Shown piece by piece: positions 9,001 through 55,159 of a stretch of 64,000 nucleotides of DNA (position 1 is its first letter; each line of letters opens with the position of its first letter). Under the pieces are notes generated by a model. The model ran no database searches. It was not told the origin of the DNA and saw only the letters and a list, made by a program, of their open reading frames with translations. This stretch comes from Rosistilla oblonga. GTDB lineage: Bacteria; Planctomycetota; Planctomycetia; Pirellulales; Pirellulaceae. Location of the stretch: NCBI RefSeq assembly GCF_007751715.1, contig NZ_CP036292.1, positions 6,331,339 through 6,395,338 of the forward strand. Reading direction: 5' to 3'. Both the position numbers and the translations under genes were made by a program.

Positions 9001-12000
9001 ATCGGCTTTGAAGTCCAATCGCAGATCGTAGACTCCCTGGCTGACACCACCAGCCGATGTCGTTCCGGCGTTGGGATCGAAGAAGTCGTTCCCCTCGGCC
9101 GCGACGCCTACGTAATACGTTCCGGGCTGGACCGAATATTGGATAAACGAATCGGTCCCGAAGTAATCATCGTTCGATGAAACCAGTTCCAACCGTTTGT
9201 TCCCCGACACATCGGTCAACTCTTGGAACAGCGTCAAACGCGTATCCAACAGACTCGACACGTTCATTCGCTCGGCGATCGTCTGCGCTTCCAAGGTCCC
9301 TGGCCGGACGACATCGATCTTATAGAGATCGACATCCAACGCCTCTTTTTGCAACAGATGCTCGCCGTGAATCAAATCGGATTCCGCGGGGAACGCCCAC
9401 TCCGAACTTGTATTCAGCGAGGAATACGCTCCCTCGGATCCCTGGAACGTCCCCGGTGGAAGATCGTAAGAGTGACCGAGTCCCAACACGTGGCCGATCT
9501 CGTGTAGCGCAGTATCGTAGAAGGAACCGCCGAACGTATTGGACGAACTGTCTTGATAATCGACGTAGTCCATCGTGACCTTAGTGCCACCCGCCACGCC
9601 AGCAACGCCACCTACGCCGCTGACCAAAGCGGGATCGTGCAAGCTGAGATCGCTCACCAACAACTGCAATCCACCGGCCCCTTCGACCTCGTAGAAGTCG
9701 ATTCCATAAGCCTCGCCGTAGATATCGAGAATCTCGCGGAAACGCTGCTCCTGCTGGGCACTCATCTGATTGTATTGAGCCTCGCCCTGGATCGTTCCGA
9801 TCGGAATGTTCCGCATGAAGGTGTAGGGCAGCGTCGCAATCGCGTCGTCGCCATCACGACTGCCAGGCGAGGCGTAGTGATCCTCGGCACCACCGGTATG
9901 CGTCACATCGATATCGCGATGGCCTGGTTCATCGACGGCCCCAGGGTTATCGGCTAAGCGAAACGCATCGATCGAAGTTGCGTTGCGGATCTCTTCGCTG
10001 ACCAACAGCGACCAATTTCCGTCGACCGGAGGTGCGACCAGGGTTGCGGCATCGGCAGCCAATACGCCCGGATCGCTGCCGACGGCAGGAAGATCCAAAA
10101 CCGCGGCGGCCGGCTGAAAGACATCGCCGACGCGGAGTCGCAGATTGTCGCCGTAGGTGGCCAACGGAGCGGCGAACAACAGCGTCACCTTGCGATCGTC
10201 ATCGTCTCGCGTGACCGTGGTCGGTAACACGGGAACGTCATCTTCGGTGCTGACGGTCCCCTTGTTGTCGATCAACTGGTAGAAGGCGGCCTCATTGATC
10301 ACCGATCCACTTTGGAACAGATCCAGATCGTCAAAATAGACTTCGATCTGATCCAACGCCGGCTGCATCGTCGTCGGATTGACCGGCTGTGGCACAACCG
10401 CCGTCACCCTCGCTCCTAGTTCCAATTCGAACCCAACGACCTCGCGGCTGGCGGTTGGGTTTCCAGGAACCAATTCGGGATAGATCGGTTCGAACGGCAC
10501 GCCCGAGGCGTCTGTCAAATCCGATGTTACCGACAATTGGTAAAAGCCATCGCGGAGATTTTCGGCAAACCGAACAATCACCTGACTTCCCTGCACCTCG
10601 AGATGTCCAACCGGCACCTCGACAAATCCATTGGCAAAATCGCCGGTCTCGCTGTATTGCACCGAGATTGCACCGTCGACCGACGACTGGCGAATCGCAT
10701 CGCGACTGGCAAACGAAAGCGTCAATTCCGTAGGGGCGACACGCCGGATGTTGTCGATCGATTGATCGTCGGGATCCAGATCGAACAGATCGCCATTGTT
10801 CGGCGCGACGGCGATCAATTGTGGATGCGCTTGGTTAAAGTTCGGAACCGTACCGGTGATCATGTACTGACCGACGCTGCCGTAGTCGGTGTATCCGGTC
10901 GGCGGATTGACCGATGGGTCACCAAATCCAATCCCATCGACGCTGACAAAATAGAACCCGGCTTCGAGATCGGTCGTCAGAGTCTTACTGAGCCCGGCAC
11001 CGGTTGCTACCGCCAGCTCATTGCCAGCGATGTCGTACAACCGCGCATCGATATTCAAATTGCTGCGGTGCAATGTCTGCGACAAGTTGGTGCCAAAGTC
11101 GTCGCTGTTTTCGTAGCTGACCGAATAACTGCCCGCACCGTTGGAAGTGTACAGCCGCGAAGCGTACGAATCGAAAGTTAATTCGATCGTTCCGGATCCA
11201 ACTTGGAATCCGAAGTAGTCCTTGTCGGTGCGATTGCCGATCACGCCAAACTGCGTCGCAACAACATCTTCCGCCAGCGACACCCCCGTCACGCTGAGAT
11301 TGGTGGCGGTGTCGATCGTATCGCCATGATCATCGGGGCGGAAACCAAAACCGTAGTTGGTGATCCTCTCCATATCATCTTGGTTGGGGTTGCTGGTGTC
11401 GAAGTATTCACCGTTGTCCCAGGTATCGATGTGAGCCGAAAACGCAGCTCCCATGATCGAGCCCCAGCGATGTTCCCCGGTGCCATGGGCGCTGTAATAA
11501 GTAGCTCCCCCAGCGGCCAAACCGTCGTGCCCCAATCCCAACGCATGCCCTACTTCGTGCGAGATCGTGGTTGCGACCGAACTGACGCCTGCGTTGTAGA
11601 CCCAAACCGGCGTATCGGTCGCTCCGGGGAAGTCGTAGCCGTCGTCGAAACTGCTGCCGTAGGCGATGCCGCCACAGCCGCAGGAGATCACATTATCGGT
11701 AGTCAATACAGCGCGCACGCCCCATGCATCGTCTCCCGCACCGGTGTTGACCAACGCAGCTTCGCCGGGATCTTCGGTCGTCACATTGACATCGAAGGGA
11801 CTGAAGTCTTCAGCGACGCGTTGCCACAGATCTTGAATCCGCATCAACTCGGTCGTCGTAAATGCCGCCCCATTGTTCTCGGGATCATACGCGGGCGAGT
11901 TGATCGTCACACCGCCTTCCCAACGCGAGGTAGTCACTGCGCCATCGGCGTCGATGAAGATCGTGTGCTTGGCGCTCGGATTGCTGTGCAGACGAAACGT

Positions 12001-12408
12001 GTCGGCCAAAGGGGCAAACGCGATCCCGGCAACCGCCGAATCGCCCTGCGCCGAAAGCGAGTTGTAATAAGCCAAGTCGGCGTCGATCATCGCCTGCGTT
12101 TCCAGCAGGCCGTGATCGGCGTAAACCGTGCCTGTCGATCCGGCGACCGCGTCGTTCAGCGGAGTCGACGAGACGACTTCATGATCGTGCAACTCCGCTG
12201 CGGCTAGCGACGCTGCAAACGCGTCGACTGCGTACGGACCATATTGAGTCGTATGCGCTTCGGCATGCAGGGAGGGCAAAAACGAATTCGGCTCGACCGA
12301 CAACAGTTGACGAGGCTCTAAGATCTCATTGAGCAGACGTCGCTTTTCCAAACGGTTTTTGATGCGGTTTTTCAGCTCGAGAGTCTTCTTTGATGTCCGC
12401 CAAGTCAT
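1..12408 (-). CDS. Giant-1: multidomain surface protein with two intact metallopeptidase sites (3' end outside window)
   Basis: The frame is open from ATG 12408 to the window edge (4136 residues, no stop), so the C-terminus is missing. The start is followed by a basic, helical head and LEPRQLLS, the LEPR-XLL motif of planctomycete exported proteins. Residues about 100-330 are a metzincin-like zinc peptidase: IFIDADG, a WQRVAEDFSPFDVNVTTEDPG-type segment, HEVGHALGLGH at 284-294 and a SIMG Met-turn. A second site, HEIGHVLGLGH, is at 969-979. Then follow PPC-like segments, a beta-helix passenger (about 1240-2000, with two DDTDIVHV motifs), 'DG...FEF' repeats, and another beta-helix near 3770-4000 (NNTIYGPGTGIRVNDG). 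The last residues (ENGRTLVEDKDY) match ENGRLLTEGVDY of giant-2 near 4406, so about a third of the protein is probably missing. Cysteines occur near the first site (ISCGCGG). Role inferred: exported or surface protease/adhesin. Confidence 0.88.
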   Translation of the reverse strand, partial: MTWRTSKKTLELKNRIKNRLEKRRLLNEILEPRQLLSVEPNSFLPSLHAEAHTTQYGPYAVDAFAASLAAAELHDHEVVSSTPLNDAVAGSTGTVYADHGLLETQAMIDADLAYYNSLSAQGDSAVAGIAFAPLADTFRLHSNPSAKHTIFIDADGAVTTSRWEGGVTINSPAYDPENNGAAFTTTELMRIQDLWQRVAEDFSPFDVNVTTEDPGEAALVNTGAGDDAWGVRAVLTTDNVISCGCGGIAYGSSFDDGYDFPGATDTPVWVYNAGVSSVATTISHEVGHALGLGHDGLAAGGATYYSAHGTGEHRWGSIMGAAFSAHIDTWDNGEYFDTSNPNQDDMERITNYGFGFRPDDHGDTIDTATNLSVTGVSLAEDVVATQFGVIGNRTDKDYFGFQVGSGTIELTFDSYASRLYTSNGAGSYSVSYENSDDFGTNLSQTLHRSNLNIDARLYDIAGNELAVATGAGLSKTLTTDLEAGFYFVSVDGIGFGDPSVNPPTGYTDYGSVGQYMITGTVPNFNQAHPQLIAVAPNNGDLFDLDPDDQSIDNIRRVAPTELTLSFASRDAIRQSSVDGAISVQYSETGDFANGFVEVPVGHLEVQGSQVIVRFAENLRDGFYQLSVTSDLTDASGVPFEPIYPELVPGNPTASREVVGFELELGARVTAVVPQPVNPTTMQPALDQIEVYFDDLDLFQSGSVINEAAFYQLIDNKGTVSTEDDVPVLPTTVTRDDDDRKVTLLFAAPLATYGDNLRLRVGDVFQPAAAVLDLPAVGSDPGVLAADAATLVAPPVDGNWSLLVSEEIRNATSIDAFRLADNPGAVDEPGHRDIDVTHTGGAEDHYASPGSRDGDDAIATLPYTFMRNIPIGTIQGEAQYNQMSAQQEQRFREILDIYGEAYGIDFYEVEGAGGLQLLVSDLSLHDPALVSGVGGVAGVAGGTKVTMDYVDYQDSSSNTFGGSFYDTALHEIGHVLGLGHSYDLPPGTFQGSEGAYSSLNTSSEWAFPAESDLIHGEHLLQKEALDVDLYKIDVVRPGTLEAQTIAERMNVSSLLDTRLTLFQELTDVSGNKRLELVSSNDDYFGTDSFIQYSVQPGTYYVGVAAEGNDFFDPNAGTTSAGGVSQGVYDLRLDFKADANPGTPLVNGGVDIAAGATSVSVVDGGLFVAGDLVRIGSEVARVVAPPVGNVLQLQRAQLGTEAIDVADGTTITKISTLTDGAGSPLDGDRDGNAGGNYNFWFRPVEDVAGQQTLFVIPTGQDVVDFDPGLGTPGSANNPYQNISAALDAAKTIIDDTSNSIDHVVVRLLPDAGDDGDLQTTDDNLAYEIGYVQSLNDTLADGRNLLLPGGVSLMVEAGVIMKFLDSQISVGSSDDGDDRSGSSIKVLGTPQDPVYFTSYNDTSIGQNSNRDTSQPAGPGDWGGIEIRNDVDRQQGQGDLEFQGIFGNYINHAQISFGGGQVSTVGRTIDPVHLSAARAEISYNTILDSSNAAISADPSTFEVSEFVGPRYQRSSIGDGFVADYDRIGPDVSGNTLLGNSTNGLFVRLDTPAGDELLKLEVAARFDDTDIVHVLGENLVVNGNAGGSLLHRIPASPIVGLIPQAGGNLPAGNYEYRYTYVDAFGYESQPSTAQSVTLTAGQSVKLANISPATGDFVARRLYRSDASSGGEFLLVAELDKSTLDYVDDLIAAPPTAAVLEPVSLRPRTDASLVIDPGTIVKNQGARIELEFGANLIAEGVLGREIIFTGRADDRFGRGGSFDTNDDGASEGSKGEWAGIYASPTSGLSIDHAQLSFGGGTTGTDGGTAFYNVIQIHQANARIANSLFEDNADGVGSQQDGGRSGLAPNSSATIHVTAAQPTIVGNTIQSNDGAAITINANSLDAEFRFDTGRQTGNVDAYEVPPANVGPVIRGNQFGQGTDSDGKLLANGINGLLVRGEVLMTEVVWDDTDIVHVLRNDIVIPDFHTYGGLRLQSSSTESLVVKADSDAQILATGRSLDITDRIGGRLLVLGQPGFPVIITSTEDDTVGAGFSPLGQPHRDTVLLPSSTNWQGLNFDPYSHDRNVATYTEREGSIGAFGDINSQIGSHQDLGLLAKDEKSGDENLRLGYTVYGAIADVGDQDTYQFEGVAGTMVWIDIDNTDPRLNSMIEIIEVDGSGNGKVLARSTDSASEDAAGQLTYVDPSVRDGHAMPMRMDIDPLTNADGSYRDLYSLNPGDAGLRIVLPGTTGSTKKYYVRVSGENGTTGGYQMQVRLRETDEVAGSVVRYSDLRYADTAISAIGLPAHSPLAAEIMHPGGNSTINIGSFANTDRGAVSASGYIDASEDRYTFEIAQDSLQRSSVPGMNTSLVFDIDWADGLVRPDTTLYVFDQSGNLVALGTNSNILDDQVTPVVPGQPTTQTDLSRGSQGTRDAFIGPLELPNGNYSVVVSTAAEMLADMQQFTQQNAANKNFRLEPLDPTVRIIDDRFSTEDSRFETTNPNPAQLPSAKEVAFTPESVIDWHFGDIPLIGISRVGVQDTNNSQINIFNPYTGRHDAIIDEDTSPINAAAQRSTGLVLAIERSIGSSSDTNTDTVYSIAADGSFTTVGATGIVTYEYFNQGGTNPHINRTDADSGMLFSSLAFYEDNNSSSSYLYGLANRGTFNGSNVGRNAGNTADVISGNAGAINANNLIYRLSADTGAVQSRNGISMPGGFQSANPQDPLIQNNTGFNIPSEAPWAGTNAIAQVQIPTTSPATGGNTGNVTSLVTSTTAGQTLLYAFTTTGAVWEMSITENNTTNYDPGDISGAPRLLIDPTSAEAIQAADGSTLSFAQVTKGPANFTDAVNGISGVESMYFGVESATGNLYAFTMDGTGGTAQRIFQYGADSVPIYGTLDGSGALAGLFFSNLDQNLWHLSSSAPAAGHGMDALDDRPDVLGGGSLRFGFDTLGEDYNHLGNDIGTVRADDLQGFSGYNFLGGAHGNIQGESIDLSGIDGADLPKLYFNYILDSENTNADDNPSSFSEANLDDVMRDSLRVYVAGADQQWKLVATNNMDDALNNRVWQDSRGNVHEYDPVGSGGYTNVANQVFVQELFDDNVFRQARIDLSPWAGDNDVKIRFEFSTAGESRPDQTDLQMLPSDQIVDGQAFTVAGSLAGSNYSETFEYDLGLVVRMPSGAQVAAAGGTLDLTRPGGATIISLQTGGNILASDSAATVAEKIAASVGGAFVNPSDPSLLQFSNETLAGSYGFGTLVDYVVGTPGVQGGANAIPVDYSMNVDQVLVATQTVLAGTIKDATAPVQLESFPRIATSNAIRFYDATVTQDASTYSAAFLAPAYKPMALIGGEHAGNDSLPGSDFGVYTGGTDSVAELLRAGERSRGLGGAMGVYLDDIVVGLAERGESATGGSGSNLADNPYHEALVYSSTSGVAPVALDVPAGPYQLEVRLGREYLSDPAGTGVQVGKGERFDINDRLAEGFNLEIGDGGAHIVDGDTFDLSNGYETLTFEFNDVTPGAPVSGIEPGNVEVSYRIDSTAGEIADAIRGAINRSSVRAVLGIEATSSGGRLNDASDTTIVLHGYAATDNFGGSTFTSPTMVADAGGTFGSVNILTQAFTSNAQRLDGELYELAVAPDGQIRPLITIDGKGNASARADHYRFTVDEPGTTVNIEMPDPSFNSIIALIDFSDISNTTVLAAGILGYPPFVEHTIDTPGEYQIVIGKISDTDLPLFLDPANLPDLSSLVSISDILSGTPFSRFRLDPTDDYQLIVAIDGMRTPILNPVVTGVDNGRGEDNGDRNLHRDQGQFVIDSNTISFSTATGIVVDAGDVTPGSKVPNEGNRPKPGAVQNFPTLNANNLVPGAVIQNNLLIRNANGIFVSGDGSAAGSNLGAPAPFARVVNNTIYGPGTGIRVNDGASPTLLNNVLVENATGINITGAGTTVIRGTTVVNEGALASVPGTATETDRISIGGAIQWDDVFIVGDTVSDPSQPDSLDLGAAGLFGMFQFDPASGVPNLYPAAGSPIIDKSIENQNDRSLFASTKNSVGIGLSPIKVTNRDLVGQLREDDPLVNNSSGQGQAIIKDRGALDRSDRRGPLAQLLTPFDGEQSQGVLIDGDARANSVFRDTRESGVLSSFRVQLSEFNQIGPDASTISALSVIVRENGRTLVEDKDY
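9472..9504 (-). other. Intact zinc site 2 of giant-1 (HEIGHVLGLGH)
   Basis: Residues 969-979 read HEIGHVLGLGH, preceded by YDTAL and followed by SYDLPPGTFQ. The domain is matrixin-like: a helix with REILDIYGEAYGIDFYEVEG lies ~95 residues upstream. Both paralogs keep this surrounding scaffold but not the catalytic residues. Confidence 0.85.
11527..11559 (-). other. Intact zinc site 1 of giant-1 (HEVGHALGLGH)
   Basis: Residues 284-294 read HEVGHALGLGH: the three zinc-binding histidines, the catalytic glutamate and the conserved glycine of metzincins. About 30 residues later SIMG supplies a plausible Met-turn. The site is embedded in a domain typical of planctomycete M12B/reprolysin-like proteins. 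Confidence 0.88.
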
Positions 12409-12788: not shown

Positions 12789-15700
12789 CTAGAAGTTGCT
12801 CCAGAACTCATCGAGTCCTTCGGCGGTGGGTTGATCGTCTCGCGAATCGGCGAGTTCATCGATGACGGGATCCAATTCGATCCGGCGGCCAGTCTCCTCT
12901 TCGCCCAACTGAGTCAAAGCAAGCGATGTCGCCGCTTCGGGTGTCAGCTCTTCGGGCTCTTCGGCCGGAGCATGCATCCAAGTTGCAGCACCCACGACGA
13001 CCGAGGAGACATCGGGAGCAACAACCGCTTCGAATTCACCGCTGGCACCATTGGTACCGTTGAGGTAATTGATAATCGTCAGCGCGTCCAACGGAGTGAT
13101 CGACCCGTCGCCGTTGACGTCCATGAACGGCCCATCGGAAATCGAGATCGTGCCGTTATCGACCAACGCATCGACATCGTTTTCGGTGTTCCGATTCAGA
13201 TGATTGATAATGATCAACGCATCGATCGGCGAAACCTCTCCGCTGTCGTTGACGTCGCGGATGTTGAGCGTGTTCTGCCCAGCACTTCGCGACACCGACA
13301 CAACAACGCTGGTCGGATCGGAAGCCAAACCAAGCGTGTCGGCGACGGTGTACTGGAACTGCGCCGTTCCCACAAAACCGTTGGCGGGAGTAAAGCGAAC
13401 CATTCCACCTGCCAGCACCTGCACCGATCCAACCGCTTCTGCAGGCTGGGTCGTGATTCGCAGACTGGCTGGATCCAACGCACCCGCAACGCCTTGATCG
13501 TTGACCAACACATCGATATCGACGGGGCGATTGATCGAGGTTCGAACAACATCGCCGCTGGTGATCGGCGTGTCGCTGACCTGCATCGAAAGCGTCAGCG
13601 GGCCGCTGCGATTCCCTTGCTCATCGGCGATCGTGAATTGGAATTCATCCGATCCCTTATAGCCTTCGCGAGGGCTGTAGCTGAGCGTGCCGTCGCCGTT
13701 ATTGGTCAACGTACCGTTGAGCGAAGCGAGAGTCACAACCAACGATGCCGGATCGACGCCACCGGTCGATGATTCGGGATCTTCGACCAAATCCAACACG
13801 TTGATCACGGTCACTCGGTTGCTGGCAACACGAATCTGATCCTGCGTCAATCGCGGTGCATCGTCGCGTCCGCTGACAGTGATCGAAACACGGCCCTCGG
13901 AAACGCCGACGACGTTGTTCGAATCGACAACCTGATACGTAAACGTATCGACTCGCGACTCTCCCGTCGTCAAGCGATCGAGAATCTGCGAAGTCGACGG
14001 ATCGTAAACAAATCCACCTTCCGCTTCGTTCTGATCGTTGAGGGTGAACGTGACAGTTGCTCCCAACGAGGTGATCCCCGTCAGCGTACCGGCTGGCCTG
14101 CCACCAAACGCGTAGATCGACAACACGTCGCCGTCGATGTCGACGTCGTTCGACAACACGCCAGGTCCATCGATTTCCAGCAGCGTATTTTCATCCGTGC
14201 TGTAGCTATCGTTGACCGGAACCGGAATGTCGTTGACCGGTACGATCGAGATCGTCAGCAGGATCGACTGCGATCGATTCATGTTATCGCCGGTCGCAAG
14301 TCCGGTATCGACAGCCGTAACCGTCACAACGGCTTCACCATTCTGATTTGGTGCAGGCGTAAACCGCAGCCCGCCGGTCGATGTGACCGATGGGGCCAGG
14401 GCGAACAATTCGGGTCGATCGGTGGTGACAACAAAGTTGACGCCTTGGCCCTGTTCGTCGAGTGCCGACGCGGGGCCCGCCGCGATTGGCGATGCCCACG
14501 TAGGATCGAGATAGAATCCGCTGCCCTCGGTCACTTTGATCCGGTTTGGATCGTCGGGTGCGTTGGGATAACCAAACTCGGGCGGATCGTTGACCGCGTT
14601 GACGGTAATCGTGAACTTCTGCGACTCCGATGCCAACGGATTGTTTGGATCGTCGTCGATCGCTGTCACGGTCACGATTGCGATTCCGTTCTGATTCAAC
14701 TGGAGGTTGAATTCGAGATCGCCATCGGGGGAGATGCTGATGTCGGGTCGCTGCGTGACAACTCCCGACGCATCGCTGGAGATCTGATCGAACAATCCTG
14801 GGTTGGTCGTCGTGACTTCGAAGCGAACGTTTTGCGATGCTTCATCCAACGCGTCGCCAGGACCTGGACGAACCGATTTCACAAAGCCGGGCAGCGTCAC
14901 GTGCCCAGGATCGTTGGCGTCGTAAACCGTCGTGTCCTCGCTGACGGTCACGTTTTCATCGATCACAAACTGCGGAGGATCGTTGACCGGAGTGACTTGA
15001 ATCTCCACCGTTGCGGTCGATCGCAGCGGCGATGAATTCGCAACCGGGTTGCCGTTGGCATCCAACGTAAACGTGACGCCATCGTCTTGGATCGTGTACG
15101 TAAACGTATCGACCATCGCGGCTGTCGAACTAGCAAAGTTCAACGGCGGCGTGTAGAGAACCTGCTCGAATCCGTTTGTCAAATCGCTATCGGTATCGAT
15201 GAACTGAACCGTTCCACCGCGGGATGTGGTGATCTCCGTCGAAGACGCGTTTGGCGACAGCACGATCAACTTCTGCGACAGCGTTTCGCCGGCGGTGTCT
15301 TTGATATTGTTGCCACCGAGATCTTCGTTTGGCCCCGCCGAATCGAGCGACGTCGGCAGCGATTGACCGATTCCCAAGCCGGCGACGATCGCGTCGGTCG
15401 GAATCAATTCGCTGACGTCCAACGTCAACGGCGTATCTTCGGTGACACGGTTGATCAAAGTGTGGACTTGGCCCAGCGGAGCATCGTTGACAGGGAAGAC
15501 CTTCAACTGCAACGGCACGTCGACAGTCTTCGGATCCGCTTGAGAGACATAACCGCCGTTGCCATCGTCGACGAAACTGATCCCTTGATCGCTGAGCGTG
15601 TAGATCAGGTTCAACGGTGGTTGAGCGGAGGTGGTCGCGTCGAGCTCGGTGAAATAATCGCGTGGTAAGGTCACTCGCACGCTGCCATTGCCGAGCAGCG

Positions 15701-18700
15701 AAACAGCCGCTCCCGCAGGTGCACCCGCACCAAGTCGGATGCCTTGAACAACCAAACTCTGCGGCACGTTTCCGACGTTGTCGACGTCGGTTGTTTCATC
15801 GATCCCCGATTCGTTGACCAATTTGTCGGTGAACAACGGCCCCAGATCGATCACCAAGTTGGTGTCGTCTTCGATCGCGTTAACCGATGTTGGCGTCGAT
15901 GCGTTTGGATCGAACGGAGCATCGTTGACAGGTCGGACCGTGGCGGTGATCTCGACGTCGGTCTGCAACGCCGGCGAACCACTGTCGGTAAGCGTCAAGC
16001 GAATGATGTCGATGCCGAAGAAATCAGCGGCCGGGGTGTAGGTCAGCTGATTACCAACGATCTCGATCGATCCGCCCTGAGTCGTCGTCAGGTCGTTGTT
16101 TGTCGCCGAGATCGTGACGTTGCCGGTTTCATTTGGCCCGTCGAAGATCCCGAAGAACGCAACGGCATCGTCGAAGACCATCGCTTGGTCTTCGAGCGTC
16201 TCGAACTCAGTCGTGCTGATCACGGGAGCGTCGTTGACAGGATTGACCGTCAGCGTGATTCGGCCGACTGTCGTCTTGGCATCGTCTTGCAAGCGAACCC
16301 AACTGCCATCGGCCAACTGTTGATAGCCCGTTGGCGGATTGTTTGGATTCGCTGGCGCGGCAGTCGGCACATACGACTGCGGCAATCCAGTCGAGGTCGC
16401 AGGGGTTGTCGGTGGCTCAAAGCCATTGGTCGCTGTGTCGACATCGCCGATTCGATAGAAGATCGCATCGGTGCCAAAGAAGTCGGCAGGAGGCGTGTAG
16501 AGAATGATCGGATCGCCCGCGAGGTTGGTACTCAGTACCGCGGTGCCTCCGTTTTCGGTCTCCAACTGGATTCCATCGGGGAACAAACCGTCGACGTCTT
16601 CCGCCAACGCAACCTCTTGGTAGGTCAACTCGAAGATATCGCGATTGCTGACTCGGTTTGGTGCCGCATCGTCGTCGCTCAAGATCGAATCGACAGAGAT
16701 TTCAAACGCGGTATCCTCGATGGCTGTCAAGTTGAGGCCAGCGTGCGATGTTTCATCGGGAACCGGCGCGTCGTTGACCTTCAAGAATTCCATGGTCACG
16801 GTCGCGGCGATCGCCGATTGCAGCGGATCGCTGACGCCGTTGGTCATTCCGTCGTCGGTCACATGGTAGACGAACTGCGCGATTCCGACGGAGTGCTGTT
16901 GCGGCACGATCTCGATCATCGGCTCTGGCGTGCTGCTGTCATTGATGATCCGCACGGTTACGGGAACCGTCTGCGAAGCTGGCAGGCCTGGCGTGATCCC
17001 TTCGGCGAAGGTGATCTGCAGGTTCTCCAAAGCCGCTTCGTTGGCTGGGAAGCCGCCATCGTTGGCCAACAACACCGACCATGGAATGCGAACGACTTGG
17101 TCTTCGAGATAGCGGAACGCAGGCAGTCCCGAGGCGACCGAAGGATCGTCGACAACAACCGGCACGTCGTTGACAGGAGTTACTGTCAGCGTGACGGTTC
17201 CAAATTCGTTGGATGGCATCACACCATCGAACGCACGATAGGTGAACGTTCCGGTGCCGTAGAAGTTGAGAGCCGGTTCGAAGGCAAACGAACCGTCACG
17301 ATTCAGACGCACTACGCCAGCGCGACCACCATCGATCGGGATCTGCTTAGGAAAACCGGTGCCATCGATATCGAAGACCGACAACCCGACGCCATCGTTT
17401 TGCAGAATGCCGCTGCTCGCGGGAATCGTAAGCGTCGTGTCTTCGGCGGTCGTGTAAGTATCGACAGCGTTTCCAGGATTGACGACCGGTGGCGTACCCA
17501 CCAGGTTCTCGACGACGTAATCCTCGACCTCACCGCCCACAGCGATGCCAGTCGGGCTGACGCCGCCGGTTTGCGAAACGCGGAATCGTGCATAGGTGAT
17601 CCCTGGAACAAATCCGTCGACCAGCGGCGCGGGGATCGCGATCGATTCGATTCCGGTGGAGACCGGTCGCATCGATACGATCTGTTCGCCCAAGTCGTCG
17701 AAGTCGCCGTCGCGGTTGAAGTCGACCCAACCATCCAGGACACCGGCACCTTGCACAGTGACTTGGATCACCGAAGCGGTGTAGTTCGGATTGAAGAAGG
17801 CCTGCGTCAGATCGACGCCATCCTCGGCGGCATCGCCATCGGCGGTGATTCCGACCACGTTGGCATCCGTCTCAGCAGTGGTCACACCGCTGCCAAGCGA
17901 AACGCTACCGGGAACGATGACGTGCCGGGCTCCGTTGTCGTCGAGGAGCGTTGCATACGGTGCATCGCCAAAGTCGAGCGTCAGACCTGGGGTCAAGATC
18001 GTGAATTGCGTTTCGCTGTTGGGGCGATTCGGTTGCAACGGGTTGCCAGCGATATCGCGGATCGCCGAAACGTCGACTGAACTGAGGTTGCCGCTTGCAT
18101 CGACAACGTCGCTAACGCCACTGAGGAACAGCGTGTCGCTGCCTCGCAACGTTGCAACTCCAGCAAACGGACCGTCGTTCGGATTCGAAGCGACATCGAT
18201 CTCGTTGATCGCTCGCACCAAAGCCAACGCCATTTGGCTGCTGCTAAAACTCAGCGGACTGAATTCGACGCGAACCGCTCCGCCAGCAACGCCGTCGGCG
18301 ACCAAACCGCTGTTGTTCATATCGAACGTCGTTCCCAGCGGTTCGTTCAATTGAACGATTCCACCAGCTTCAGCGACAGGTTGAATTCCAAGGCTCGATT
18401 GGCCGATCACGCGAGCGATCTCCGCCGCCAATTCATCGGCGTCCAGCAGCACGTTGAGGCCCGGGATCGAAGGATCGGGCTTGGTCAAGCTGATCACCTG
18501 GTTGCCAGGCGTGGTTGCCGGATCGACGTTCGAATCGTTGAACTCGTAGCGGACCGTGTTGCCAGCAATCGTTAGAGTGAAACTGGTTCCATCGATCACC
18601 GTCGGAACGCCACCGGCGTCGACAGGCACTGCCAAGTGCAAGCTCTCTTCGACACCCGGGGTGCCGATCGAAACCAACGCCGAACTGTCGACGTCGACCG

Positions 18701-38800: not shown

Positions 38801-41800
38801 TCGTGCTGGCGAAGGTCATCGCCACGTTGCCGTCGGCTACCGAACCATCGGTGTCGACTTCGAAGACAAAGCTGTCGCTGCCCGAGGTGATCCGCATCAG
38901 ATCGCCATCGTAAACGATCGTGTTGGCGGGCACTTGGACTTGCAGATTGCCATCGACCATCGTGCTGCTGAGTCGCGAGACAGGAGCCGATGTGACCGTC
39001 GCGGTCCGTGCTGGCTTTGGAACCAACGTGATCAGACCACCAACCGGCGCGGCGGCCGTCTGGAATGGGAACTGATTGCTATTGATGCTGTTGATGCCGG
39101 TTTGGATATCCTCGGCAACCAACGTTGGGTTGGCGGGATTGCGGATCGGAATCTGAAGATGATTCGTCGCGACCGCTGCCGTTCCAGCAAAATCCAACTC
39201 GAAGGTAAACGTCTGCGTTCCCGAGGTGATCACGATCAGATCGCCGTCGGCAACCTGTCGCACAGGATCGACTTGGATCTGCGAATTGACTGCCGAATTG
39301 GTGACTTCGATCGCGGGAACCGTCGGCTCGTAGCTGACCGATACCGTTTCGCCCTGCTTCGGCGTCAACAGGATCAAACCATTGCCAGCGTTGGCGACGG
39401 CATCCAGTGGGAAACGTGTTCGGTCGACCAAGACCTCGTTCAACGAATTCACGATATCCGCTTGTGTGTCGGTCAACACAAACGGAACGGGAACGTTTCC
39501 TGCGAGCGTGGTTCCGTCGCGGTCGAACTCAAACGTTGTGACCGTCAAACCATCGGGCGAAGTGATACGGATCCGATCGCCATCGCGAACGCCACCCGCT
39601 CCGCCGCCTGCCAGCGGAATTTGCAGGTTGATGTCGGTCGGCAACTGCAACTGGTATCCCGTCTCGTATTCGAACGTGACGGTTCCACCTTGCGTATCGG
39701 TGACGACAAACTGCGATCCATCGACAGCTTGGGTTCCCGGAGGTGCCAGCAACACAAAGCGATCGCGATTGTTGATGCCAATCTGGTAGACCGCATCGGG
39801 CAACCAAGCACCAGCCAACGGATTCAGGATCACGGTTTCGGTTGTCGCGTCGTAACGGAAGGTGTAATCGACGCCCTCCTCCAACAGTTTGCCGTTTTCG
39901 AACAGCGTGACCACGGCACCTGGTTTGCGGAGATCTTCCAGAGCGGAGTTGATCACCGTGTTGTTGTCGATATTCGATCCGACAAACGGATCCGATGGAT
40001 CGGCAACGTCTTGCAGACGGATGCGGAACTCCGACGGCGGCGGCGACTGCAGATCGACTCGGGTCAGGTTCCGATCGGTATCGGTTCCCGCACCATCGTT
40101 GTCAAACGGCAGGATCAGCGTCGCACCGGGACCAACAAAGTCGGCGCGATCGACAGCACCGCGATCGACAAACACGTTACCACCGATACCCGGCGGGGTC
40201 GCGACCGACGGATCGTCGACTCGCAACAGACCAAACACATCGCGGTTTGGTGCCAACACAGGGCTTGGCGAGATTCCCAACGCGTTCTTCAACGATGCGA
40301 ACTGATCGCGTTCGAGCAGCGATTCGATCGACGAATCGATCGCGTACGAACCTGGATTCGGGATAAAGTTATCCCCTTCAGGGTTGTTGACGATCTGCTG
40401 GCCGCCAGGAATCACGTCGTTGAAATCGTCGAACACGTTCCCTGGATTGACGTTCGATGCCGAACCTCGCACGCCTTGGAAGATGTTGTTACCAACGATC
40501 ACTTCGTCCTTGCGAGCAGGATTTGGGCCCAACACGCTAGTCGTTTCATCGACGACACCGTTGCGGGTGTTCATGATGATGTTGTTCAAAATCGTGGGGC
40601 TTGCACCACGCACCATGATCGCCGATTCGGGAAGGAATCGGTTTTGATTGGTGCTCAACGATTCGCCAGTCAACGGCGTGCCGTTAACCGAAATCGTGGC
40701 GGCGTTGCTGATCACGACAAACTGCTCGGTGGTACCATCGCCGGTGCTACCGGTGCTGTTCAAGCGATCGTGTCCAAAACCGTTCTGCGAATCGATCGCG
40801 GTTCCCAAAGCATGGTGGAACCGCAACAGGATCTCGTTGATTCCGGGATCGTCGCCCGAGATACCGCCCAGAGCAACCGCTTCGACGCGTGAGACGGGAC
40901 CGTTGAGTCCGCCTGGGCCGTTGCCATTTTCGTGGTTTGGCAGCGTGTTACCGGCGGAGTTATTGATCGTTGTCGCCAAGTTGCGAGCTTGGTCCCAAGG
41001 ACGATCGTTTGCGGGAACCGTAAACGTGTTGGTGTTACCCGCGACGTCGGTGATTTGGACCGTGTCGCCAGCGTTCAGGTCGGCCAGAGCCAAGATGAAC
41101 TCGCGTGGAGCCGAGACGTTGATATCGATCTCATAATCGCCTTGTCCGTTTCCATCAACACGTCCGGCCAAGCTCAACGGGTCGTAGCTCTCGTTGCCCG
41201 CCGCACTGACGGCAACGTAATAGGTTCCCTTGTAGGTCGCGGTGAAGTCGAGATACGGATCGTTGCTCGCCGCTTCGCCAGGAGCTTGTCCGGATTCGTT
41301 GAAGTCGGCTTGAATCGCCAACCCCGATCCGAGGCTCGCCGGACGTCCTGCACTGTCGAACAGACGCAGCACGGTGTCGACTGGGTTGATGATCGAGCTC
41401 GCTCCAAACGAATCGACATCGACTTGAACGCGATCGCCCGCGTCGAGTTCGATTCGGTAGATATCGACATCTTGCAAGGCACCCAACGATGGCGAATCGC
41501 CGATCGCGCCGGTGGTGCTAAACGACAGCGGCGTCACTGCCGAACCCTGATGCGTGACCACGGCTCCCGCGATCGTGTCGTTGGGTTCGTCGACTCCCGA
41601 GCCTACCGAATCCGTCAGATTCCCATCGGCACCATAGATCGTATTGTTAACGATCCGCACAAACGGCTGAGGAGCTTCTGCAAGGGTCAATTCGCGAGCT
41701 GTCAACCAGCGGCGTGCTTGAATCGGTTGGATAACAACGTTGGTTACGCCTTCCAGATAAAGAGCTGGATTGACGAAGCCCATCTCTCCGGCACCGTTGC

Positions 41801-44800
41801 CGGTGTTCGAAGTGATGCTGTCTTCCAGCACGCTTGGGCCGATCGTCGGCGTGACCAAACTGACCAGATTGTTGGTTACCAACACGCTGCCCAAGATCGC
41901 ATCGTACATCGCCGCGACGACTTCGTGTTCGGTATAGCCGAAGCTGCGGTTTGGTGCTGTCCCCTGCGGATTGTAGGTCGTCCCACCGGCATCCTTACGG
42001 ATGTAGATCGGTACCGCACCGGCGGAAACGCCATCGCCACCACGCACGCCGCTACCACCGTCGCCGGTGACGTCGCCACTGATGTCTTCAAATTCGAACA
42101 GCACCGAGATGCCGGCTGCCCAAATGGTCATCTGATCGCCATCGGAGATCGCATCGCCAAAGTGAACCTCGGGAACTCGCGGTGTATTGGTCGCCGCGGT
42201 CGCTTCGGTCGTATCCTCAGCCAATCCAAAGTTGCCGTTGGTATTGATGATCCAAGTCGGCGTTGTCCCTTCGACAGTGATCCCAGAAACGCCAGATTGA
42301 TCGATGACGTTGTTGACAACCACGGCACCGGGAACCAAGCCCCCTTCGACCGAGTTGTTCAGAGCGCGAAGGTTGCGAACCGCCCCGCCGTAGCTGCGTC
42401 CCAGATTCGGCTGGCCAAGATCGCCGTGAGGCGTTCCGCTGCCGAAACCGGTGGGCGAGCCATCGGCGCGGAAGTCTTCAGGATCCTGTTCGCGGTCGGC
42501 ACCTTCGATCCAAACACCGTAGACCTGCGAATCGCTGATCACGTTGCTGTGGATCAACAATTGGCCCTGCTGGCGTTTGGCGTTTGTGTCGCCAGTGCCC
42601 AAGTGAACGATCGCTGGCAAGGTTACGCGGCCGTCGACGGCGATCAGGTTCGGGTTCCCAGCATCTTCGCTGGAGATCGAACGGGCGCGGATGAAGACTG
42701 CCGAATCGTTGGCGTCGACAGGGCTGAGGCTGTCCGCCACATCGGCGACAACGACCTTCACGGTGTAGACGCGAGAAGCGACCAAGCCGCCGATCGTTGC
42801 TGTCAACGGACGCGAGATTCCGTCGAAGCCGGTCTCGGTCAAGAACTTGCCAGCCATGTTCGGATCGTTGTTGACGACTTCCGCTTCGGGCAGGTTACCC
42901 GCTCCCACAGCATCCAGTCCATTGATAGGCACTGGTACCGTCACAGGAATCGAATTCAGCGGATCGCTGTCATCCATGTACGAAAGGAAGACAGCCGCAA
43001 CATCGGGGTTGGCTCCGTTTTCGAAGAACTCTTCCGATGCAAAACCAAGCTCCAGGAACAGGCTCTTGAGCCCGCTGACATCATCGAAGCTGAACTGGAA
43101 TTCCAGCGAAGTCGAATCGACCGTGGTGCTACCGGCCGGCAGGACTCCCGGGGTATTGTCGACGTCGTTGTCACCAAAGCCCGACGCCGAAGCAGTCGTG
43201 TTGTCGCTGAGGTTGAAACCGGTCACGGTCGACAGGTCGCCGTTGGTCAAGACAACGCCTTGATCCATTCCCAGCACCTGCGATCCACCGGTGAAGCTGC
43301 CAGCGTTGCCGTTCAAGAGTGCCGAACCCGATACCAGAGTCAGCCCATCGCCCAACAATTGGCTAGCCAATGCGTCGGGATCGGTGCTTGCGGTAACCGA
43401 CAGCGATTCGTCGGCAAGCTCTGCAAAGTCGCCGCGGACGCTGCCGAAGAGGTTGATCCGCGCGTCGCCTTGCGTGCTACCCTGAGTGATTCCACCGCTG
43501 GAAGCCGCACTGAAGCTGGCTTTCGCTGCAACCGCAGGACTGTTGATCGCAGCGATCATCGCCCCGGCAACCGTGCTGGCCGAATCGGTCGGCTGGAACG
43601 GAATCTGCACGCGGCCCAGCGTGACGCCGCCGGTCGAATTGAATTCGAATTCTTGTGTGATGAAGCCGTCGCTGAGTTCAAAGAAATCGCCGTCGGCCAA
43701 CTGATAACCGGCGGGAGCGATCACGGTGATCGATTCCGACTGGCGATCGTTGGTGTCGAAGACCTCGCGGACGTTCAGCGAAGTCCCCACGGTGTCGGCG
43801 TAATCGGTTCCAGGTCGGACCTCCAACTGATAAGCACCCGAGGTGAATGTCCCCGGCGTACCTTGTTGAACGAAGTCGACGTTGGAGGCGGTCACGAACG
43901 AAGAACCGGTGACAAGTTCACCGTGCTCTGCGAAGCCAACGATAAAGTCGTCGACGTACAGACCTTCGCCCGTCGAACCGCCCGGCGTGTTGTATTGGAA
44001 TTCAACCGTCACGCCCGAATCGCCAGCGAAATCGGCCAGCGAAATTCTCGCTTGACGCCAGATATTGTCGTTTGTCAAAACGCTACCGCTGAACGCCGTA
44101 TCGCTCGACGCAACCGTTTGTCCCACGGGATCATCATTGCTGGTGATTCGCACCGAGACCAGATCGCCGGGATCGGTATCCAAGGCGTAGTTGAAATACA
44201 GGAACGGTTGATCGCCGGCGGTGTATCCCGACAGATCAAACTGGTTCGCCGAAAGAGTCCCGCTGCCAGCAGCTGGATTGAAATGCAGACTCTCGTTCAA
44301 AACCGAACCGCCCAACGCACCAACAGCATGTCCTTCGACCGACACATGCAGGGTATAGTTGCCGTTTTCGATCAACGTATCCGGAGCGGTATAGGTTCCG
44401 GTGGTCGCGTTAAACGTCGAACCGTCTTCGACCACGGCGACCACGTAGGTTCCAGGAGCCAACGTCGTGTCGATCATCGGATCGGCAAAACCGCCAAACG
44501 AACTGCTGCCGGTGTCGAAACCGTTGTCGACACTGACGGCCACGGGAGTCGTGAGATTGGCATCGACGCCGGTGATCGCAAACAACTCCAACGTGAAGTC
44601 GTCCGACCCCAACGTGTTGAGGAAGTCGAATCCGTTATCGATGTCGAGGATCACGCGGTTGCCAGCACCGGCATTGGTGTCCGGAACCGTGAAACGGAAG
44701 AAGTCGACGCTGTCATCCAAAACACCTCGAATCGAAGTGTGCGGAATCGTGGTCGATGTGTTGATGTCGACAAAGTCTTGGGTGATATCGCTGTTGAAGT

Positions 44801-47800
44801 TCAATCCCCAGTTGGCCGCAGAATCGATGCTGTCGGCCGAGAACAACGTGTCGTTCGATTCGACCTCGGGCTGTTCAGCCAACAGAGGGTCGATCCCGAT
44901 GCGTTCCCCATCAAACGTCGAATACAGGCCGTGCCCGACTTCGGTCGCTCGATTGGTCGTGACTTGCCATCCGGCAGGCAGCGTCGATTGATCGATGAAC
45001 TGCAGAACAGCAGGTGGGTTATTGGTGTTTGGATCGATCGCTTCGATATGATCGTCGACCAACCGCTTGATCGATGCGATCGGTTCGCGGCGGAGCAGCG
45101 GATCGGTTGTCAGAATCGAAGGCACTCGGCTCGATTCGGTTACCGCGACAAAATACGAACCCTCTGGCAATTCGACCGATCCGATAAACGGATCGCCCGC
45201 GCCAACGCTACCGCGATCGAAGTCCAAGGCGGGATCGCTGTTCAGCGAATCGCTGCGGTCTTCGGCAATATTGCTGTCCGCACCGGTGTAGACCAGTCGC
45301 GGCGGCAGGCTGCCCGATTGCCCATCGGCGTCGTAATAGACCCACAGCGTGGTGTCTGGACGTCCCAGATCGTCGGCGTAATCGACGTCGAAGACGGTTG
45401 GGAAATGGGATCCCGAACTGCCGTCGGTGCTGATGATGTCGAACTGATAGAAGTCGATATCGGTCAGATTCGACAGTTCGCCACCAACGCTCAAGACGGT
45501 CAAATCGCTGTTCAACAGGTTGCCGACATACTGAGCCCGATCTTCGGAAGACGCGGCGTTGGTGAAGATGTTGTCGTTGCTGATCGACGAACCAGGACCT
45601 TCATCCTCCTGCGCCTCACCCAACAATGGGCTGTGGTACGGCAAGCCCTTGGCGTGGATACCGTGCTTGGCATAACGGATATCGGCGTACCGAACCGTCG
45701 AACCCGAGAACTCCTGTTCCTCTTGCATCCGGATCTGGAATTCGTATTTGCCAGTCGTGATACCGCCGGCGAAATCGTTTGGATCGACCGATGCCGATCG
45801 AATTCGGACGTAATAGGTATCGCGGGCACCGCGGACACCCGGCAGCGAGATGCGGAATCCAGCGTCGCGCGGATTCGTCGTGCCGTATTCATCCAGCAGA
45901 CCAAACTCGTTGAAGTTGTTGAGCTCTTCGGCTCCCTTCTGCAACGTTCCCAGTTGCTCGTCACGCAAGCCAAAGTTCTCGAACAGTTCGTCGGTGCTAT
46001 TGGTGCTTCGCGCCAACAGCTGGCCTTCGGAATCGAGCACTTCGACGACGGTGTCCAGGTTGAAGCTGGTGCGGTCGATATCGAGCCAGACTTCGGTACC
46101 GGCAACAGCGCTAAACGCATAGACGTCGATGTCGTTTTCGGTCAAGAAACCGGAGACTTCAAAGCCCAATCGCAGCGTGTCGTCGGAGTCGTATTGGCTG
46201 GCGGCCAAGTCACCGATCACTTCGGGGTTAACCGTATCGGCGTTCAGACCAGGCGCTGGCGCGTCGTGCGCTTCGCGTTCGAGCACGACCTCGACGTTGC
46301 GGTCGTTGGAGAATTCATCCAGGTAGATACCGCGCCAATCGTTTGGCTCTGGACGCGTTGCCCATAGATCGTTGTTGGTATCGGTATGCGGAGTCCCATC
46401 GGGCTTCAACGAAGCACCGACGGTATCGTCGGACAACGCCGTCAAAACAACGGGCGATCCGGGAAGACCGATAATCTGCAACGTACCACCGACGCGATCG
46501 TCGATGTCGCCAAGAGTTCCCGTTGCGGTCAGACCGGTTCCATAAAACGGATCGGCCGAACTGCCCGAGCCGATGTCTTTGCCTTGGCTGGTCGTCTCGG
46601 AGCCGGCGAATTTCACGACCAAGCTCTCGTCGGGACGGCTCTGCAATCGCAGACCGCTACTGCCGTGCAGGTTCCCCGTGATGAACTGCTGGTAAGGGAC
46701 GTGCACGATGTCGGTGTCATCCCAGATGCTGCGCGTCGTTAGGATCACAGCGGATACCGCTAGCTCGCCAGCGGACAAAGGATCGCCTGCGACCGTGGTA
46801 TTGACCGTGATCACATTGTCGGGCGTTCGAACATCGTCGACCCCAGGAACCCGGTCGCCGACGACGTTGCCAACCGTGTATTGGCTCGTCTCGCTGGTGA
46901 ACTCGCGTCCGCCGACGAAGATCGTGTCGCGTCCGCGAATTTCCAGACCGTTGAGCCCGTTATTGTCCATCCGGTTGCGGCGCACCAAGGGGCCGTAGTT
47001 GTCGTCGAGATCATCGATCCGCGCGATCGGGCCGGTATCGCGGCCGATGTCGACGATGTATTCGTCGGTCATCGAATTACCGTCGATGTTGATCGTGCTA
47101 CCGACGTTGTTGATGAACGTATTTCCAACGATCACCGGTTGGGCACCGCGAACGAAGATCGTTGTTCCGCTGAGCGCCCGGAACGATTCGCCAGCATCGG
47201 CCGATGGCGCGTCGCGAAGATCGATCGCAACGTTGTCCAAACGTCCCAAGCGGTCGCGAGGCCCTTGGCCGCCCAAGCCCTCGTGATTGTCTTCGAACGA
47301 GGTGTTGGTGATCCGCGCCGTCGCTTGCTGCAGCTCGACAGCACTGAACGCACGGAATGTACCTTCGATGCGTGTCAGACCACCGCCAAACGCGACGATC
47401 GAATTGTCGAGGCTCAGATGCGCCCCGGGAGCAAAATACAAACCGCCCCAATCGCCAGCCTCTGGAGGCAGCGGATTGACGCCATCGATCAAGCCACCGT
47501 TTTCGGTATCGAACTCACCGCCAGCACCGTAGCGATCGTCAAGGATACTGGTGAAGATGATCTCTTGACCATCGAGACCTTCGGCCAGCAACTGCGTTCC
47601 GAATTCAAATTCGATCCGCGAACCCTGGACCTTGATCACGCTGCCTGGATCGATCTTCAACGACGCATCCGGACGCGCCAAGCGAACCTCGGTGCTCGTC
47701 ACGTCCAACTTGATCGGAACGGTGTTCAAACGGTCGCCGCCATCGATGAAGTCGGGATCGTTGGCGTCGAGAATCGCAACCAGATCGTACCCGGTTCCGG

Positions 47801-50800
47801 CAGCGTTCAATCGATAGATGCGACGGAACAAGAATCCATCTTCAGCCGGTGGCAGACCGCTGAGCGTGATTCGCCCCTCGGTTCCCACCAGTACTGGCGA
47901 GACGATTGCATCCGAAGGCAGCCCTTCGCGGCCAAATGAGTCGACCGAAACGATGCGGTATTCATAAGCCACGCCCGCTGGCAACGAACCGCCACTGGAA
48001 GCTTCCGTGTTGACCAGATCGACGGGCAACCGACTCTCGTACAAACGTGGACCGCCCGGCGTGCCGTCGACGATCAAGTTCTCCGCGATGACATGCACAA
48101 CATCGGTGTCGTCGAAACGACCGGCGACTGTCAATTTACGCAACGTCCCGCCGGCTGGCGTCGTGGCGCGAATGAACATCCCGTTGATGCTGTTGTCGGT
48201 CAACTGGTTTCCGTAGACATCGGGACCAACGCGGTCGTAGTCTGCGGTAAACGCGCCGGCCAATTGGTATTCGACGGTTTGGAAATTGGTCTCTTGGAAA
48301 CTGTCCGGCGTCGCGCTGATCGCGGCATCGGCACTGTTGGAGATCGTGTTGTTGGCGACCGTCGGACGCATGTCGACGATCTGGATAGGATTGACCAACG
48401 TCTGGTTACCGTCGATCACCGCGCTGGCACCACCACCGTATTTGATCTCGGCAAATCCGATGTGCTGCAGGAAGATACCTTGATCTTCCAGATCGGCGCG
48501 ACCTTCGATCTGATCGATGTCGCGACGCAACAACAATCCGCCCCAATCACCCGCGCCAGGCGTTGTCGCCAAACCGGCTTGTGGCGTTCCGATCGAACTG
48601 TCCAGAGCACTTGTGAAGTAGACCGATCCCTCGATCGCGTTACCCAACGCGTCGCGAAGCACCGCACCGTTGTCGTCGACAAGTGTTGGCGTACCCAAAA
48701 CTTGCAACGCACCACCGCTGCGATCCACCAACAGGTTGCTGCTACCGACACCGATGTACGAGCGACGCAATTTGAAGATCGCGTTGGCGTCGATCATCGC
48801 CGTCACGCCCTGCGGTACCTCCATCTCGGTACCGTCTTGCAACACCTGGCCTGGCAGCGAACCGAAACCAAGCTCATAAGCAAAGTTGTCGTTGAGCGTC
48901 GTTGGATCTTGGTCTAAACCGCCGTTGCCAACGATCCGCACGATGTCGCCAGGATGCGCCGCCGCAAACGCGTTTGGAATCCCCGTTCCCGAAATGCTGT
49001 CGAACGGACGATCCGCCGAACCATCGGCGTTTGGACCGCCAAAGTTGTCGACAAAGATGGTCCGTCCCATGACGTCCATCGCGAGGAAGTTGTCCGGTAC
49101 CGTGATCTCCTGTTCGCCAGTGATCTCGATCACCGTACCGTTGACCGATACCGAATCGAGGAACGATCCGCCGGTGACCACAGCCCCTTGGAGCGCCGCG
49201 GCAAACTTGTCCGCCAAAATCTCTGGCGTGTCGCTGTCATTATAAGCGACCATGATCCGGCCCGATGCAACCGAACCATCGTTGGAGAACTCGAACCGCC
49301 GCGTGATTCCGCGGTAATTGGTAACCTCGATCACCTGGCCATTGGTGACGCTGTCGCCGCCGCTGACAAAGTCCAGCTGCCGATTCAGTGGTCGTGTTTG
49401 GAACCAGAAGTTGAAGACACCACCGGGAGTCCCGTCGTTGGAAGCGTCGACGCGCGTTCCTGGCAAACGGAATGGATCGCTGCTGTCGAGATTGTTGCCG
49501 TCCAAGTCACGCAACACATCGGTTTCGTCGACCTGCGGACGGAACTTCAACAACAGTTCGTATTCGCCCTGCGTTGTGCCACCAAATCCGGTGCCGCTGA
49601 TCGTTGGATCGGGAAGGTCGTTGCCCGATGCGGTGACACCGATGTAATAAACGCCGCTGCCGAGTTCGACCTCGAGGAACGAATCCTCGCTGTAATAATC
49701 GTCGTTGCGAGCTACCGAAACGATCCCGCCGCCGCTCAACAACACTCGCGGCGCATCTTCTTGCAAGCCGTTAAATGTTGGGATTTCGGTCGGATCGATG
49801 TCCTCGCTCAATTGCAGCGATGCCGTCACCAGATTCGCCGCCGCTGGCGAAGCATTGATCGCATCGACCACCTGCTGGACCGTCGTGTTGTCCGGGTCGG
49901 ACATGTAGACGCTGATCTGGTTTTCGGTGACTTCCACCGTCGGCGTCGGGTTGCTGCCCGCAGGCGTGATCACCAACTGCACGCTGGTTCGGTTGCCCAA
50001 GTCGCCCGGTTGGACCGCGGTAAAGTTGATCTCGAAGTTGCCAAACACACCAAAGTCGGTGGTCACGCTGGCTTGTTGTTGCTTGTAGAGCGTCAGCGAG
50101 GTGTCCAACAAACTGCTGTCGCCCAAGCGTTCAGCAAACGTTTCCGCCGTCACGACGGCCAGCTTAGTCGGATCGTCGAGGTCGACCTCAAAGCGATACA
50201 GATCGATGTCACCCGATTCCGGACGCCACAGATATTGGCCGTGCAGAATGTCGTAGTTGCCCGGGAAGACAGGTTCCAAAGTCGAATTGTTCGCCAGGAA
50301 GTTGCTGTCCAAATTCATCAGCGTCGAAGCGGGCAGGTCCTCTGCCTGTTCCAAGCCCAACAGCAAACCGATTCCCGCGATCGCGGTGCGGAAATAGTCT
50401 TCGCCGTAGAGGTCTCCCCATTCGACAAACGAATCCATCACCAGCGTCGCGTTGGTGTTGGCACCCGTCGTTGTGATGTCGGGATCGACGCGTACACCAA
50501 AGGTCGATTGAGTGAACACGTTGCCGGTCGGCAACGGAGCTCCGGTGCTTGGATCGTTGTCCAAAACCGAGAGGTCGCCGGTGGCGAAGGTGAAGCCTTG
50601 GTTGTCGGTCTCGTAGAACTGCACGCCCAGTTCGCTCGCCCACATGTCGAGCGCTTCGCGGATCCGTTCCTTCTGGCGTTCGGAAACCGAGTTGACGCGC
50701 GACGTACCGTTATCGTCGATACCGTAATCGCTGCGGAAGTTGTATGGGATCGTTGTGATTCCCGGCGTCGAATCGGCGCCGAAATTATCGTTGACGTGCT

Positions 50801-52598: not shown

Positions 52599-52605
52599 GG
52601 AGCGA

Positions 52606-55154: not shown

Positions 55155-55159
55155 GCTCT

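Follow-up and report, generated by a model that had tools for sequence, protein, structure and literature searches.

Giant planctomycete genes carrying ligand-less metzincin-like domains beside intact relatives in Rosistilla oblonga

In the planctomycete Rosistilla oblonga, three giant open reading frames (ORFs) lie collinearly and in tandem on the minus strand of a 64,000-nucleotide stretch of contig NZ_CP036292.1 (NCBI RefSeq assembly GCF_007751715.1, positions 6,331,339 to 6,395,338). This stretch is hereafter called the window, and coordinates without a contig name follow its numbering. Transcription runs from giant-3 (g3) through giant-2 (g2) to giant-1 (g1), with gaps of 129 bases (g3/g2) and 380 bases (g2/g1) between the listed ORFs. 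A preliminary description of this DNA read the trio as one active protease and two pseudoproteases that had lost their active sites stepwise. As reported below, the second metzincin-type domain (D2) of g2 and g3 has lost every zinc ligand, is predicted to retain its fold and evolves under purifying selection. The D2 of g3 belongs to an old dead clade, and giants of its type are commonly encoded close to intact relatives.

Three giant genes and their zinc sites

The giants are collinear paralogs with 27-46% identity across long stretches (Table 1). All three open with a planctomycete motif of the EPRxLL/EARQLL type and end in Big_9/cadherin-like repeats followed by a type I dockerin, the end of g1 being found in locus L040. 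The open frame of g1 comprises 8487 codons in total and crosses the window edge, with the remainder outside. For g3, which also contains GEVED domains, an ATG at 52598 is more likely to be the start than the TTG at 52670; a choice-of-anchor L domain (NF038133, E 2.5e-25) was matched in the same gene at 42000-49100 on the minus strand.

All five site motifs named in the preliminary description were found where it had placed them. When tested for the zinc site HExxHxxGxxH, both the first domain (D1) and D2 of g1 are complete, and D2 of g2 and of g3 retains none of the four ligands; no HExxH occurs anywhere in the g2 or g3 frame. The D2 site aligns across all three giants between conserved flanks, as had been proposed, but the flanking sequences themselves differ from one another (DLPPGT in g1, EAPPGT in g2 and DLPAST in g3). 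The Met-turn column holds Gln in g1 (PPGTFQG), Met in g3 and Ala in g2. A Pfam scan of the N-terminal parts returned peptidase families in g1 only, with none at E up to 1 in those of g2 or g3. Judged by its ligands, g1 is a putative active metallopeptidase. A metzincin without these ligands is not expected to bind a catalytic zinc.

The first domains tell a separate story. The earlier claim that all ligands were gone holds for D2 of g2 and g3 but not for the first site of g2, which keeps its H and E and lacks the second and third His. Nor were the first sites of g1 and g2 borne out as counterparts, since the two domains show no sequence relationship (hhalign probability 0.8). Homologs of g1 D1 occur in 101 of 241 family genomes, many within frames of 800-1600 codons, and a structure search of this domain against solved chains gave no match at E <= 0.01. 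The family of the g2 first domain is rarer (12 of 241 genomes), and its intact members carry HExxHxxSxxH with a Met further on. Among 13 aligned domains of that family, nine of the ten from outside the genus are intact and one is degraded, and all three genus copies are degraded with H and E still present. As the preliminary description had it, g3 lacks a first site altogether: EPRKLL runs straight into the linker that trails the first domain in g1 and g2. Because the g2 domain comes from another family, not visibly related to g1 D1, and g3 has none, the first position does not appear to be a single character decaying in steps. A 286-codon frame elsewhere (L250, G027:C121) holds an intact relative of the g2 first domain and has a C-terminal end resembling a PEP-CTERM signal; it is perhaps a free-standing form of this family.

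Table 1. Positions of the giant ORFs and their recognized features within the window.
Feature	Coordinates	Strand	Remarks
giant-1 (g1)	12408..<1 (1..12408 in window)	-	N-terminal 4136 codons in window; two intact metzincin sites
g1 D2, intact matrixin-like metzincin	9334..9936	-	HEIGHVLGLGH at 9472-9504; PF00413 match
g1 D1, intact reprolysin-like metzincin	11338..11997	-	PF13582 E 4.4e-12; HEVGHALGLGH at 11527-11559; SIMGA Met-turn at 11446-11460
g1 EPRQLL planctomycete N-terminal motif	12301..12318	-	Pfam PF07595 match below its cut-off
giant-2 (g2)	12789..32750	-	6653 aa; both metzincin sites degraded; C-terminal Big_9/cadherin-like repeats and dockerin
g2 type I dockerin	13059..13256	-	PF00404 E 7.1e-13; coordinates derived from protein match
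g2 D2, dead	29658..30395	-	TLVMSALGVGS at 29862-29894
g2 first domain, degraded, separate metzincin-like family	31827..32615	-	HELGQVLTLTD at 32058-32090
g2 EARQLL N-terminal motif	32622..32639	-	
giant-3 (g3)	32880..52670	-	6596 aa from TTG 52670; without first metzincin domain
g3 type I dockerin	33231..33413	-	PF00404 E 6.5e-12; coordinates derived from protein match
g3 D2, dead	50208..50855	-	AGIGLLLGLEQ at 50346-50378
g3 EPRKLL N-terminal motif	52482..52499	-	

Fold, selection and ancestry of the second domain

The preliminary description held that the scaffold of the dead domains is kept without its ligands, and structure prediction agrees. AlphaFold models of the dead D2 domains were built from 62-row alignments (42 of the 62 members of the A4 alignment match PF00413). 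The g3 domain was modelled with a mean predicted local distance difference test score (pLDDT) of 83.2 and a predicted template modelling score (pTM) of 0.85, and the g2 domain with values of 78.3 and 0.80. In Foldseek searches of the PDB, the g3 model matched snapalysin best (1kuh, E 8.4e-6), as well as karilysin and matrix metalloproteinases (MMPs), with 132 matches at E <= 1e-3. The g2 model matched MMPs (best 3ma2_D, E 4.7e-4; seven matches at E <= 1e-3). These models support, without proving, retention of a matrixin-type metzincin fold, including the active-site helix, in both dead domains.

Selection on the decayed sites, another check that had been proposed, was gauged from the ratio of nonsynonymous to synonymous divergence (dN/dS), calculated by the Nei-Gojobori method with our own script for orthologs in the three genus genomes. 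The estimates are approximate, with dS above 1 in several comparisons. For dead D2, dN/dS was 0.056 and 0.083 in g2 (third pair saturated) and 0.058-0.100 in g3, and for the degraded first domain of g2 it was 0.102-0.110. Intact g1 domains compared with the window copy gave 0.113 for D1 and 0.091-0.113 for D2, and the very close g1 pair of genomes G006 and G072 gave 0.023 and 0.040. The dead D2 domains of g2 and g3 are under purifying selection, with ratios akin to those of intact g1. With catalytic residues lost, selection maintained and the fold retained in the models, they would qualify as pseudoenzymes, and the reading of one intact protease with two pseudoproteases fits the sequences. Between G006 and G072, g1 is 94% identical at the protein level (N-terminal dS 0.05-0.29; L264-L273), compared with 82% for g2 and 85% for g3. 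Because g1 is far more alike than its neighbours, a recent exchange or conversion of g1 between the two species is suggested.

Among 149 family genomes, 119 yielded D2 domains, the closest named relative of the window's copies being Roseimaritima sediminicola (51% identity). For comparison, 118 regions, besides two from the window's own genome, were hand-picked among matches listed by E-value, which biases the sample towards high-scoring D2 domains. The named loci numbered 80, of which 50 were used, 28 were dropped as duplicates and two (L227 and L233) were left unused; L039 and L294 were dropped for coverage and L326 as a duplicate, and L294 was assigned to the g3 type by motif alone. Among the 221 D2 domains sampled, 105 are intact and 116 lack at least one ligand, with 98, 10, 5 and 3 keeping none, one, two and three of the four, respectively. 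An HExxH anywhere in the stretch from D2 to PPC was found in only two of the 116 non-intact rows, both with three ligands. In the intact domains, the Met-turn column is occupied by Met in 66 cases and by Gln in 30.

A tree of 171 D2 domains, built with the site columns removed, implies 24 changes between the intact and non-intact states, and a 221-row tree with array members added implies 27. In addition to the intact form (g1 type), the family contains old dead forms, here termed the g3, middle and solo types. The D2 of g3 is placed within a 30-row dead clade (Shimodaira-Hasegawa-like approximate likelihood ratio test support 89), of which the 29 counted rows span 18 genera; nested sets of 15 and 16 rows around g3 are better supported (96 and 99). 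That of g1 lies in a 24-row clade with 23 intact members (support 98), and that of g2 groups firmly with its genus copies only (100), its deeper placement being unsure. Approximately unbiased (AU) tests on 78 chosen rows of the 221 rejected the genus trio as a single clade (p-AU 1.8e-9); stepwise decay within this locus is rejected on this ground, and the earlier proposal of stepwise loss among the paralogs is not supported. A single loss for all dead D2 rows was likewise rejected (p-AU 1.0e-5). Joining g2 to the middle dead clade gave a likelihood 13.1 above that of the free tree (p-AU 0.797), and the test is also compatible with g2 joined to the g3 clade (p-AU 0.315) and with one uniting the g3 clade, the middle clade and g2 (p-AU 0.479). 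Taken together, these sequence trees indicate that the losses are old and occurred more than once in the family, while a single ancient loss common to g2 and g3 would also agree with them. Because the tree joining g2 to the middle clade exceeds the free tree, the dead-dead-intact sequence of genes may itself be an old gene order.

Neutral decay, in which the activity was no longer needed and the domains are vestigial, would agree with the many separate changes between intact and dead states (27 on the 221-row tree) and with the variable ligand columns of the g3-type clade. It is nevertheless very improbable, given dN/dS values of 0.06-0.11 like those of intact domains, a dead clade spanning 18 genera and frames of thousands of codons that are free of stops in most of the matches listed (one was listed with a stop). 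The dead heads look as if they are kept for a non-enzymatic job rather than decaying.

What is conserved differs among the dead clades. All 29 rows counted in the g3-type clade share G, G and L, which are scaffold residues of the helix, at motif positions +3, +7 and +8 (L144, a member of the 30-row clade, was excluded from this count). Every one of the 19 solo-clade rows has Gln in two places, the column of the second His and that of the Met-turn, and the third His column holds Tyr in 17 rows and Phe in two. The middle clade has Arg and Gly at the first two ligand columns (9/9 each). The Met-turn Met is present in 25 of 29 g3-type rows and in none of the 19 solo or nine middle rows. The fixed Gln/Tyr/Gln set raises the prospect that some dead clades, above all the solo clade, took on different chemistry, or a different ligand, where the zinc site had been; we consider this very unlikely, and g2 and g3 lie outside that clade. 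The window's genome also holds a fourth D2 giant, L039 (G000:C1:695534-696457), which is dead and lies in a 5320-codon frame; the corresponding copies from both other genus genomes cluster with the solo clade, which is marked by GYGYADDLPQPVTQS-like sequences.

Among rows with 450 or more residues preceding D2, an intact upstream site was present in 17 of 61 intact and 3 of 83 dead ones (Fisher p 4e-5). This apparent link between an intact upstream site and an intact D2 was discarded, being unsupported by phylogenetically independent pairs (10 pairs; on average 1.3 pointed the same way and 0.4 the opposite way).

Co-location of dead and intact giants

Arrays were surveyed in 27 genomes hand-picked for long contigs or hits, of which 24 contain a g3-type giant. 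In 18 of these 24, an intact D2 giant lies on the same strand within 60 kb, compared with 0.21 expected from random placement, and in 17 of the 18 it is downstream. When D2 giants of any state are counted, 22 of the 24 genomes have one no more than 60 kb from the g3 type, and 21 have one downstream; of these 21, 19 have none upstream within 60 kb, the contig ending nearer than that in three cases. The dead-dead-intact order of the window occurs in the three genus genomes and in G087, G111, G055 and G137. Conserved co-location, as expected of a system in which dead and intact giants are partners, is thus observed in these hand-picked genomes, and because the arrays are conserved, a joint function of the giants is favoured.

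Other genes were considered as companions of the array. Upstream of g3, Tad/Flp pilus genes occupy 53922-58830 on the minus strand (TadZ-like ATPase, secretin, RcpC/CpaB and prepilin peptidase). They were rejected as conserved neighbours: RcpC is present in 26 of the 27 genomes and adjoins the array only in the three genus genomes; in none of the other 23 do the two share a contig at a distance of 60 kb or less. A search for cohesins as dockerin partners gave matches in five of ten genomes, including one weak match in each of the three genus genomes. In the window's genome this match (G000:C1:5518767-5519141) sits in a 670-codon frame with a counterpart in both other genus genomes, and the encoded cohesin-like protein is a possible partner of the giants' dockerins. 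Further upstream, one ORF at 59977-61908 on the minus strand combines HEM4 (uroporphyrinogen-III synthase) and URO-D (uroporphyrinogen decarboxylase) domains.

A proposed role for the dead heads

The giants are probably long planctomycete proteins, exported by way of their N-terminal motif and anchored to the cell surface through their C-terminal part, with a matrixin-type metzincin module in the N-terminal part. Because the fold is kept in the models and purifying selection acts on the dead forms, these would have a role independent of zinc catalysis, most likely that of folded modules for docking or assembly. We therefore propose, with a probability of roughly 0.55, that the old pseudo-metzincin heads are folded, non-catalytic docking modules working with the intact giant or its substrates. 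Joint work at the cell surface is proposed because a g3-type giant usually has other D2 giants, often intact ones, downstream: the dead heads would hold a partner, a substrate or each other, and the intact head, or the two of g1, would cleave. A more tentative extension, which we regard as doubtful, is a family-wide surface system in which the first-encoded pseudo-metzincin giant recruits or positions the active giant encoded downstream, with the heads of g3, g2 and g1 assembled into a single heteromeric protease machine borne on fibres that run to thousands of residues.

Several observations weigh against this proposal. Intact relatives were among the sequences aligned for AlphaFold and may bias the models of dead domains towards a metzincin fold, and the structural match of the g2 domain is weak. 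Three of the four ligand positions rank among the more variable columns of the g3-type clade, a pattern unlike that of a conserved binding site on the face of the former active site. The array data contain exceptions: three of the 27 genomes lack a g3 type, and six of the 24 that have one lack an intact D2 giant within 60 kb, with dead neighbours only in G147, G129, G011 and G037 and no D2 giant at all within that distance in the drafts G060 and G042. In G103 the intact giant is upstream only; in G068 and G048 there are intact giants both upstream and downstream. Moreover, the surveyed genomes were our own choice, and tandem duplication alone could keep paralogs adjacent.

In a rival explanation, the dead domain merely caps or spaces the structure near the beginning of each giant, and the arrays reflect old tandem duplication with no partnership. 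Such a role would accord with the kept scaffold glycines and leucine beside three varying ligand columns, with the adjacency that tandem duplication predicts and with a dead solo-type giant outside the array in 17 of 24 genomes (typed by tree, and in the window's genome by its genus copies). The one-sided arrangement downstream of the g3 type, and the clade-specific residues that the solo and middle clades fix at former ligand columns, speak against it, and we consider it possible though less probable than docking. Dead heads that serve as decoys, substrates or inhibitors of the intact head would also account for co-location, and pseudopeptidases that regulate active cousins are described in the available part of one source (PMC11266112). 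No sequence feature points to inhibition over docking, however, and a regulatory role of this kind seems unlikely. The structural, docking and regulatory explanations overlap in part, the last with docking in particular.

Among known systems, the nearest relatives are matrixin/serralysin-type metzincins (PF00413, Peptidase_M10), with which D2 shares its predicted fold and, in its intact members, HExxHxxGxxH, mostly with a Met 10 residues past the third His. Unlike these, g2 and g3 lack any ligand and any peptidase-family match, and the D2 module resides in frames mostly of 4000-11000 codons with cadherin-like repeats and dockerins. The pseudopeptidase ADAMs (M12; ADAM2, 11, 22 and 23) likewise carry dead metzincin heads on multi-domain surface proteins, and the surface of the dead domain of ADAM22 binds LGI1, according to the part of PMC11266112 available. 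However, ADAMs are animal proteins of another metzincin family, and that part of the source describes their pseudopeptidases as typically retaining the Met-turn, in contrast to the solo and middle clades of D2. CLCA proteins, a zincin family of animals and some prokaryotes, show many conserved, non-random HExxH substitutions, as stated in the available part of PMC3650047. They thus resemble D2 in their substituted sites, but form a different family, and tandem giants with intact partners are not mentioned in that part of the text. Dead zincins in ADAMs and in CLCAs, the latter with prokaryotic members, were already known, as were planctomycete giant genes: the phylum is known for genes exceeding 5 and even 20 kb, and surface proteins or polyketide and nonribosomal peptide synthetases (PKS/NRPS) reportedly make up more than 90% of what giant genes as a whole encode, in the available part of PMC5177795. 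The words metallo-, peptidase, dockerin and cadherin are absent from the main text of that article. In a literature search, the D2 module family and its arrays were undescribed among the titles and abstracts of the matches listed.

Giant genes are widespread in planctomycetes and mostly unexplained, as far as the available part of the same article (PMC5177795) states. A recognizable head module that comes in intact and in old dead subfamilies, and whose genes recur in a similar order, would turn many of these genes into a family with testable roles. The 116 non-intact domains among the 221 sampled also provide a large natural set of bacterial metzincin inactivations, with which to study the origin of pseudoenzymes and the reasons for their persistence close to active relatives.

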